Positions 8,484 to 10,935 of a stretch of DNA of 64,000 nt are shown here, piece after piece (within the stretch, counting starts at the first letter, position 1; each line of letters opens with the position of its first letter). The translations under genes were made by a program, and so were the position numbers. The notes under the pieces were generated by a model that saw nothing but the letters and a program-made list of their open reading frames with translations, did not search any database and was not told where the DNA came from. This DNA is from Pedosphaera parvula Ellin514 (GTDB taxonomy: Bacteria; Verrucomicrobiota; Verrucomicrobiia; Limisphaerales; Pedosphaeraceae): NCBI RefSeq assembly GCF_000172555.1, contig NZ_ABOX02000010.1, forward strand, positions 62,001 to 126,000. Reading direction: 5' to 3'.

Positions 8484-9194
8484 TGCATCCCCCTCCGCAC
8501 GTTGCATCCAACCGGTAAATCCCTTGTTCATTCTGTCTCCAATATTTTTTTATCAGGTTAACCCAGTTTAAGTCAGTTTAGCTCAGTTCAACCAATTCCC
8601 CGGCACCCTCGCTTTGAATCCTCCCAAGCCACACTCCTGGAAAAAAATTGTCGAATCGCCGTTAAGTGCCGATAGCTGTCGCTGCCTGCCATTTCCCTCC
8701 CAACTCCGCCCTCCGACGCTCCTCCTCCATTTCCACCCAGGCACAAATCGCCCCTCCACCCCGCCTCCTGCCGGCCCCATACCAATGAATAACCTGCAGA
8801 CCATTTCATCATAAAAAATTTTTAACCGACTAATACCGACTATTGGCGTCTATTACCGTCCGAACCACTTACACGTATCAATCCCTGTCTCGCAAAAACT
8901 CCCGCTCGGAATTCGTAACCACACGACCCGCACATTGGGTGCTTGGGAATTTATCATTGGACATTTCTTTATCTCCCCTTTCATATGCCTCCCAGACTAC
9001 AAAACCCCCAACCGCTGTCAACCAATAAACCCATACATTCACATAGTATCAGTTTCCATAATCCTCCCACCCCGCCAATTCCGCCACCAGCTTCACTAAT
9101 CCTTCCCACCCCATCCGCGTAAACGACCGTGCTCGGAAGTGTAACCCATCACTCCGGATTGTTTGTTACCTACCACTCCGGTTCATACCGTGGA
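8484..9194. other. Long non-coding stretch
   Basis: About 700 bases without a convincing gene. A short degenerate tandem run lies at about 8556-8595 (units like CAGTTTA, GTCAGTTTA, CTCAGTT). Around 8820-8865 there is another run of similar ACCGACTA/GTCTATTACCG units. At 8957 the phrase CATTGGACATTT recurs at about 20421, suggesting a common intergenic filler of this genome. No tRNA, promoter pair or protein-like frame was seen. Confidence 0.5.
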
Positions 9195-9326
9195 TATTTT
9201 TTATGCAAAAGACTGGCCGGAGTGGGGGCGGAAATGAGTTTAACCGTGCTGGCCTACAACCTGAAACGCGTTTTGAACATCGTCAGCCTCGAGGATTTGA
9301 TCAAGGCCGTGGCAGTGAAGGAATAA
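9195..9326 (+). pseudogene. IS5/IS1182-type transposase C-terminal remnant
   Basis: The last 43 codons of a 65-codon open frame read Y-F-L-C-K-R-L-A-G-V-G-A-E-M-S-L-T-V-L-A-Y-N-L, then K-R-V-L-N-I. This is the conserved end of DDE transposases of the IS5/IS1182 group (x-F-L-x-K-x-L-x-x-V-x-T-E-M-S-L-H-V-L-A-Y-N-x-K-R). The catalytic D-D-E core is absent, and upstream sequence (9129-9194) does not look like transposase, so only the tail of the gene survives. The TAA at 9324-9326 is followed immediately by an intact intrinsic terminator. It sits next to the putative integron remnant, so this is a region with a history of mobile elements. Confidence 0.75.
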
Positions 9327-9349
9327 AAGGAGGGCGAAAGCCCTCTTTT
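9325..9349 (+). terminator. Intrinsic terminator of the transposase remnant
   Basis: GAGGGC, a GAAA tetraloop, then GCCCTC, flanked by AAAAG on the left and TTTT on the right. The stem is perfect and begins within the stop codon of the transposase remnant, so it is probably the original terminator of the insertion sequence gene. Confidence 0.75.
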
Positions 9350-9456
9350 GCCACTGGCGACGCCCATAACCACCTGGAACGCTCCCATTCCCAGATCAAT
9401 AATTTGGCCTCCCGGAAAACTTCAAAAAGAAAAACCTCAAAATCCGGTGAACACCT

Positions 9457-9521
9457 CGCCAACCCCACGCCATTTACAAAAAGTAAAATACTTTTCACAC
9501 AGGCTCGCGCGGTGTTAGGCG
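9457..9521 (-). repeat. attC-like recombination site (candidate)
   Basis: On the minus strand, GCCTAAC (9520-9514) begins 11 nt after the stop codon of the 9531-10229 gene, and GTTGGCG lies at 9463-9457, so the ends can pair imperfectly (CGCC/GGCG and AAC/GTT with one bulged base). The interior holds a second perfect stem, AAAAGTA/TACTTTT (9479-9485/9489-9495). R''-like box after a stop codon, imperfect outer pairing, inner hairpin and a length of 65 nt fit an integron attC site. The R' box departs from GTTRRRY, so it would be a decayed or weak site. Confidence 0.45.
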
Positions 9522-9530
9522 ACTTGCGTT

Positions 9531-10229
9531 TCATTTGAAGTTCTCAAGCGGAATTTCCCAGGTGCCAGTGATTTTCAGATCAAGCTGTGAAACGGGCTCT
9601 TTGCGAAAGTCGGTCCGATTAGCGGATGTCTTGGTGTCCCAGTTGAGGTTGTCCGCCTGAGTCTTTGCCGGCACGAATGTCCGGGCATCCGAAAGTGTTT
9701 GGTAAGGCAGCCAATTCTCCAAAGTCTCCTTGCCATTCACTTTGATTTCGTCGGCGGTCCACACTTTGAAGGAACGAACATAATCGGACCACATCTGGAA
9801 CTCGTAGCTCTCAAACTCCACTCTGCCGCCGGGTGGAAGCCTGAAGAGCCGAAAGCCCTTGTCATCAGTGACGTTCAGAACTGTGATTCGGATCACCTTC
9901 CCTTTGCTGCCTGACTCAGCCTTGTAATATTCTCCCGTATTGAAGCCATCCGCAGGAATCCAAGTCGGCTCGAAGCCCTCCGGGATTCGGACAGGCTTGT
10001 TCAGTCCCGGCGGTTGGTCGCAATTGTAGGGCAGGACGAACCAGAGTGGCGTCTTGGTGCGATTGGTCAGCACGAGGGCCGCGCGGATAAACTTCATGGG
10101 CGGCTTGCCCTCATGTTTGGAAACGAACGTGGCAGACACAGGAGGTGGCAAGCGGTCTGCGGCGTCACCAGTCACACTGGCAACGCTCGCGACCGCCACC
10201 ACCAGAAAGGTTTGAAAAAGAGTTTTCAT
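9531..10229 (-). CDS. Hypothetical secreted protein, putative integron cassette gene
   Basis: 232 residues with a cleavable N-terminal signal (hydrophobic residues about 4-22, A-A-D near the expected cleavage site). The mature part looks beta-rich, with L-V-L-T-N-R-T-K-T-P-L-W-F-V-L-P-Y typical of small beta-sandwich proteins and a P-P-G-G-R-V-E-F turn. No catalytic motif is recognised. The start codon lies about 17 nt after a GTCTAGGC box and the stop about 10 nt before a GCCTAAC box on the same strand, the spacing expected of a gene cassette. No promoter is evident between it and the upstream small gene, again cassette-like. Function unknown. Confidence 0.65.
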   Translation of the reverse strand: MKTLFQTFLVVAVASVASVTGDAADRLPPPVSATFVSKHEGKPPMKFIRAALVLTNRTKTPLWFVLPYNCDQPPGLNKPVRIPEGFEPTWIPADGFNTGEYYKAESGSKGKVIRITVLNVTDDKGFRLFRLPPGGRVEFESYEFQMWSDYVRSFKVWTADEIKVNGKETLENWLPYQTLSDARTFVPAKTQADNLNWDTKTSANRTDFRKEPVSQLDLKITGTWEIPLENFK

Positions 10230-10245
10230 GGAAAACGCTCGAGTC

Positions 10246-10293
10246 GCCTAGACCTTATGCCTCGGCGAAGGGTTTAGCAGCGCATGGTTAGGC
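10246..10293 (-). repeat. attC-like recombination site (candidate) between two small genes
   Basis: On the minus strand it runs from GCCTAAC (10293-10287) to GTCTAGGC (10253-10246), 48 nt. Ends pair as GCCTA/TAGGC with CC/GG next and ATGC/GCAT further in (10256-10259 with 10282-10285), leaving a loop of about 22 nt. The upstream gene's stop codon lies inside it, 10 nt after the first box. This matches the order R''-L''-loop-L'-R' of attC sites, though it is shorter than most known sites and the R' box has one extra base relative to GTTRRRY. Confidence 0.45.
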
Positions 10294-10720
10294 GGCTCCA
10301 GTGTTCCGGATATGAAAAGTTTATATCGAACTTCTTCGCCCATTTCGCTGTCTCCTCTGTGTATACATGGCCCGGGAATGAACATGTTGGAAGATCTGCA
10401 ACCCGTCCGATCATGAGTACTCCGCCCCGCGGACACTTTGGCATGGGAGGCGCATTGCGGCCGAGGTATGGAAGAATATCATCCACTGTCGGTACTGCAT
10501 TCGAGTAAACGGTCCTGTAATCCTCGGCCCGGCCGCTACTCCCTCGCTCAGAACGAAACTTCTCCAGTGCCCACTGTTGCTTCGCACTATCAATGCATAT
10601 CATATTATGGATGCATTGCGCATCCAGTGCTTTCCTATGTTCGTGAACAAGCCACGCAATCCCCGCGATGAGAGAGAGAATGCTTGCTACCGAAATTCCG
10701 ATTATAGTCCTTCGTTTCAT
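10274..10720 (-). CDS. Small membrane-anchored hypothetical protein, putative integron cassette gene
   Basis: 148 residues from the ATG at 10720. An upstream in-frame ATG at 10744 would read through the recombination box and is rejected. It starts M-K-R-R-T followed by one hydrophobic helix (about 6-24), then C-I-H-N-M, D-S-A-K-Q-Q-W-A-L-E, a Y-L-G-R segment, P-K-C-P-R-G-G and P-T-C-S-F-P-G-H. These blocks are typical of verrucomicrobial pseudopilin-like exported proteins with paired cysteines, but the usual prepilin cleavage signal is absent. A perfect GTTAGGC box lies 15 nt upstream of the start and GCCTAAC covers the end of the gene, so it has the dimensions of a gene cassette. Function unknown. 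Confidence 0.6.
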   Translation of the reverse strand: MKRRTIIGISVASILSLIAGIAWLVHEHRKALDAQCIHNMICIDSAKQQWALEKFRSERGSSGRAEDYRTVYSNAVPTVDDILPYLGRNAPPMPKCPRGGVLMIGRVADLPTCSFPGHVYTEETAKWAKKFDINFSYPEHWSRLTMRC

Positions 10721-10735
10721 GTCAGTGTAGTAGCC

Positions 10736-10766
10736 GCCTAACAATTAATATGCGACACGTGTCGCA
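10736..10766 (-). promoter_or_regulatory. GTTAGGC box and 16-bp palindrome (candidate attI/regulatory region)
   Basis: GTTAGGC on the minus strand (10742-10736) is an exact GTTRRRY core box, 15 nt before the start of the first putative cassette gene. No complementary partner box was found on the far side, which is expected of an attI site rather than attC. Next to it, 10751-10766 is the perfect palindrome TGCGACACGTGTCGCA, flanked by AATTA and TAATT that can extend the stem. It could be an operator. Both roles are inference. Confidence 0.4.
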
Positions 10767-10797
10767 ATAATTCCCATATACGAACAATATTTCGAGT

Positions 10798-10935
10798 GTC
10801 AGATGTCATTCGGCAAGGCATCCTGCATTGAACGCCGAACAGGTTTACTGCGACTGGCTCAAGCGATGCCGCAATTATCTTCAAACACTGCCGCCTCACT
10901 TGCCCAGCGAACTCAAACTGGAACGATTCAGGCTA
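10798..10935 (+). pseudogene. Possible N-terminal fragment of a tyrosine recombinase (integron integrase-like)
   Basis: In one frame (TTG at 10828, open back to a stop at 10768) the peptide reads L-N-A-E-Q-V-Y-C-D-W-L-K-R-C-R-N-Y-L and then H-L-P-S-E-L-K-L-E-R-F-R-L-L. This resembles the core-binding domain start of integron and Xer-type integrases (T-E-Q-x-Y-V-x-W-I-K-R followed by H-P-x-E-L-x-x-x-E-x-F-L). It runs into the 3' end of the opposing gene at 10933 and has no catalytic domain. Its orientation, divergent from the two cassette-like genes, is what an integron predicts. The match is short and by eye only. Confidence 0.3.

Follow-up and report, generated by a model that had tools for sequence, protein, structure and literature searches.

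The locus raises the question of whether two small minus-strand genes, bracketed by 7-mers of the integron core type, are the remains of a chromosomal integron. The window (the whole stretch of DNA analysed, 64,000 nucleotides of Pedosphaera parvula Ellin514) had been proposed in an initial annotation to contain a decayed integron with two cassettes and a truncated divergent intI. The open reading frames, the 7-mers and the EQVYCDWLKR frame were recovered upon reading of the sequence where they had been placed. Comparison within the own genome and with genomes of relatives supports the proposal overall, except for the second attC pair and the structural call of attC1. The locus is very probably a dead chromosomal integron, with two cassettes, a truncated divergent intI, an eroded attC1 and an attC2 split by an IS1182 element (Table 1). 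On the minus strand, attI is followed by cassette 1, attC1, cassette 2, one half of attC2 and the IS1182 remnant, while the intI fragment lies on the plus strand, divergent from attI and the array.

Table 1. Features of the integron locus and their coordinates in the window.
Feature	Position	Strand	Remarks
Locus	contig C10		own genome of 7.4 Mb, 95.9% complete
intI 5' fragment, core-binding region	10797..10929	+	93% identity over 121 nt to consensus of own-genome copies
TATACGAACAATATTTCGAG, conserved, between attI and intI	10777..10796	+	in most attI-intI copies of own genome and in G005
16-bp perfect palindrome TGCGACACGTGTCGCA in attI	10751..10766	.	kept in C15, C22 and G005 attI copies, some with 1-2 changes
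Core box of attI (GTTAGGC, recombined at G/TT)	10736..10742	-	other attI copies share the box and the sequence upstream of it
Gene of cassette 1 (148 aa)	10274..10720	-	hydrophobic stretch at N-terminus; remote homologues frequent in order
attC1, decayed	10246..10293	-	exact 5' half GCCTAACCATGCGCTGC; eroded 3' half; R' reads GTCTAGGC
Orphan gene of cassette 2 (232 aa)	9531..10229	-	signal-peptide-like start (by eye)
attC2 5' half, GCCTAACACCGCGC	9507..9520	-	broken after GCGC
IS1182-family element end	9192..9506	-	TIR GAGCCTGTGTGAAAA from 9506 downward; 95% identity to intact same-genus copy (G001)
IS1182 transposase C-terminal remnant, DDE type	9192..9326	+	contains GAEMSLTVLAYNLKRVLNIV; inside element end
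Short repeat adjoining IS break	9129..9191	.	63 bp; 89% identity to C22:32734-32796; 29-nt exact match on C13

The GTTAGGC box (10742-10736) is located 15 nt before the first ATG of the cassette 1 gene. An attI with a GTTRRRY box lies next to intI. The intI that diverges from the array belongs to the IntI clade and is present solely as a truncated fragment, identified by its DNA identity to own-genome copies with an IntI-like translation. Compared to the copies on contig C15 and in G005 (a genome of another genus of the same family), the window intI carries a 43-bp deletion at 10796/10797, which removes the ancestral ATG, and an additional 1-nt deletion causing a frameshift. It ends at 10929, adjoining the end of an unrelated gene, and the catalytic part is absent. 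The integrase-like start of the plus-strand frame, claimed from the letters alone, was confirmed with a consensus translation composed from several own-genome copies, which matched Phage_int_SAM_4 (E = 1.7e-16); longer own-genome copies of the stretch continue as IntI-like protein. The HMM check suggested for the plus-strand frame taken alone (70 aa) yielded no match to any Pfam or NCBIfam model. The conserved sequence between attI and intI might be a promoter or operator of intI. A promoter scan remained at chance level; transcription of cassette 1, the one adjacent to attI, may still start from a promoter somewhere in the stretch of attI and intI.

For the attC sites, a covariance model was built on 12 sites, of which relatives contributed eight and a cluster on C15 of the own genome four. 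Its consensus fold comprises the R and L stems; the 5' arm contains extra bases that are unpaired, and both partners are changed in 10 pairs. With this model and a limit of E <= 1, 30 sites were detected in the own genome (best 1.6e-22; four of the 30 were used for model building) and 66 in the relative G003. In the whole window, neither the model with default filters nor an Rfam scan gave a match. The exact pattern GCCTAAC-N-GTTAGGC was also tried as a lineage test; at the spacing used it is useless, since it had 0 matches in the own genome, fewer than the reversed control.

Between the two genes, GCCTAAC is found at 10293-10287 and GTCTAGGC at 10253-10246. The first 17 nt of attC1 are those of the lineage attC 5' half (17/17), which occurs once without mismatch in the window, where 0.19 matches are expected even at 3 mismatches; the stop codon of cassette 1 falls within this site. 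With the model filters switched off, attC1 was the best match in 1.6 kb, with 9.8 bits compared to 9.6 for a chance site. The hairpin between the genes is weak (DNA fold z = -1.4), 20 of 200 shuffled sequences being equally or more stable. The attC pair annotated between the genes is thus upheld in its exact 5' half and matching cassette ends but not in its model score, which is at noise, or its unremarkable fold. It is not callable from structure and rests on the exact 5' half together with the cassette ends. A complete attC anatomy (R'', L'', L', R' and hairpin) is represented at this locus by that exact 5' half with a noise-level score and, at attC2, by a half-site. As judged from the missing 3' half, attC1 has probably lost its function.

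The cassette ends are paired. Both ends of cassette 1 read GTTAGGC-GGCT and both ends of cassette 2 TAGGC-GACT, one of them as the reverse complement in each case, which gives 4 bp of agreement beyond the core box for either cassette. In arrays of the lineage, agreement of at least 4 bp past the 7-bp box was found for 8 of 13 cassettes (62%), a control limited to these 13, compared to 0.6% of mismatched pairs. The paired ends are the strongest local evidence for what appear to be two distinct cassettes, and such a rule may provide a way to recognise cassettes with decayed attC. In G003 (C93:43.5-48.5 kb), most cassettes agree by 3-5 bp past the core box at start and end. For the protein of cassette 2, a search of 57 relatives gave no homologue at E <= 0.001, and Pfam and NCBIfam gave no match either.

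Past the second stop, GCCTAAC is located at 9520-9514. The initial annotation had paired it with GTTGGCG (9520-9457), which lies within DNA common to IS1182 elements on C22 and in G001. This 7-mer is therefore a chance occurrence and was rejected as an R' box; only GCCTAAC-ACCGCGC belongs to attC. Since the end of the IS1182 element extends from 9506 downward, attC2 is a 5' half-site and not a degenerate R''-R' pair. An intact IS1182 copy in G001 (C37:12934-14613) is situated inside an attC and encodes a transposase of 482 aa, for which NF033551 gives 405 bits at a cut-off of 270. The window remnant, 95% identical to this copy in DNA, is assigned to the IS1182 family on this basis. The breakage of both intI and attC2 is demonstrated by comparison with other copies.

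The stretch 10731-10929, comprising attI and the intI start, is a multi-copy DNA repeat of the own genome and occurs in G005 as well. The plus-strand frame has eight relatives in the own genome, on C15 and C22. The own-genome attI-intI copies are 87-97% identical to their consensus, and the G005 fragment is identical to it over 93 nt. No functional IntI was detected in the 95.9% complete own genome, as no TIGR02249 match exceeded the cut-off; integrase fragments were found on C15 and C22. Among the 58 genomes searched, IntI was above this cut-off in 18. The attC cluster on C15 (68-84 kb) contains at least five copies of attI with truncated intI in tandem between cassettes and no intact integrase. 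In G005 (C93, about 9.8-11.5 kb), attI and the intI fragment precede a different set of cassettes, as well as an attC that a MITE about 150 bp long has interrupted. The intI breaks differ in position between the copies, and no shared recombination site was found at these breakpoints.

A complete integron may never have existed at this locus, if the cassettes were inserted off-target or if the attI-intI-cassette block was copied from the C15/C22 cluster. This is a possible though distinctly less probable explanation, in keeping with the presence in the own genome of eight or more attI copies, clustered on C15 and C22, whose intI is truncated, and with the finding that the intI breaks differ, yet every such remnant in the stretches examined is without the catalytic end. 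Against copying, both cassette genes are absent elsewhere in the own genome at high identity, so that any copying of the block in recent time did not include them. The flanking genes were searched in relatives for an empty site, and none with the same flanks was found. Improbable is a third explanation, in which attI and the intI fragment are a spreading unit, carried for instance in cassettes like the delta-attI-type cassettes of mobile integrons, which are functional there (PMC12901181). The tandem copies between cassettes on C15 and the near-identical copy that another genus carries beside other cassettes point in this direction, but with differing intI breaks and no shared site, decay after repeated capture or duplication fits better. 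The many attI-intI copies may be due either to repeated capture with subsequent decay or to block copying. The view that the genes form an ordinary operon or are unrelated, and that the 7-mers arose by chance, would suit the noise-level attC1 score and the lack of a domain match for the 70-aa frame; it is already contradicted by the DNA identity to the multi-copy attI-intI of the own genome and G005, the exact attC half and the paired cassette ends.

For the dead integron as the preferred reading, a sequence of events can be proposed from the anatomy of the locus. IntI joins the attC of a circular cassette to attI at G/TT of GTTAGGC. An IntI active when the locus was formed would have inserted both single-gene cassettes at attI via attI x attC. 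Later, intI would have lost its start and catalytic part, and attC1 would have eroded, in an order that can only be suggested. An IS1182-family element would have entered attC2 7 nt past the R'' box and then itself been cut to 315 bp, again in a presumed order. The locus is predicted to be no longer capable of recombination by its own means.

As an integron the locus is ordinary. It resembles sedentary chromosomal integrons and CALINs in that its cassettes contain one gene each and point the same way, its attC are of the lineage type and a working IntI is lacking. CALINs are proposed degraded integrons, as the term is used by IntegronFinder, with a reporting threshold of two attC (PMC9024848). 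With fewer than two intact attC the window locus is below this threshold and, in contrast to a CALIN, it retains attI and an intI 5' fragment. The attC 5' half and the complementarity of cassette ends are common to the window, the G003 C93 array and the C15 cluster of the own genome, the latter also containing the attI and intI sequence. The G003 array differs from the window remnant in its longer IntI (277-aa frame, above the cut-off) and its 11 attC.

The IS1182 remnant is the less ordinary by-product of this analysis. Its junction is located at the same attC position in the window as in many other copies. Nearly all TIR copies in the own-genome stretches examined and in G005 start 7 nt after R'' or at the mirrored place, with the exception of one on C35. 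On C15 (70856-70964), a MITE of about 110 bp interrupts an attC and is flanked on either side by GCGC, an apparent duplication. The intact G001 element is the apparent autonomous partner of the MITEs. In a scan of public genomes, the TIR was widespread and a simple context test flagged attC at 9 of 127 copies among the matches listed, attC contexts recurring in verrucomicrobial contigs among the same matches. Specificity for attC across all bacteria was rejected on this count, many other copies following GGCC-like sites, so that the targeting is confined to a sub-lineage. The count of 28/36 TIR loci is biased upward, because several loci were chosen after the attC flag in the public-genome scan. 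Among the matches listed, the TIR GAGSCYGTGTGAAAACTC has a wide distribution in bacteria; it frequently follows GGCC-like sites, and at several loci it forms MITE-like inverted pairs about 150 bp apart.

Other parasites of attC are IS1111-attC elements and group IIC-attC introns. A branch of IS1182 and its MITEs is likely specialised on integron attC, with insertion 7 nt past R'', and would add a third type to these. Like the window element, IS1111-attC insertion sequences target attC (Tetu and Holmes, 2008; Post and Hall, 2009, both as cited in PMC11187229). The window element differs from them in being a DDE element of the IS1182 family (NF033551, Pfam DDE_Tnp_1_6), and the DEDD transposase characteristic of IS110/IS1111 is not present. 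Another member of the IS1182 family is IS1272. It was reported to target inverted-repeat structures, as attC sites also are, and to replace the inverted repeats without target duplications (PMC5678879). The elements described here enter attC at a single fixed position, and one MITE shows an apparent duplication of GCGC. No published description of IS1182 targeting attC was found in the open papers searched.

The locus is an example of the death of a chromosomal integron in a phylum with few described integrons, with the integrase lost, an attC eroded and another site broken by an element aiming at attC. Cassettes blocked in this manner would become fixed genes. The attC-seeking IS1182 branch in Verrucomicrobiota is the part worth following and, if confirmed, would account for part of this decay.
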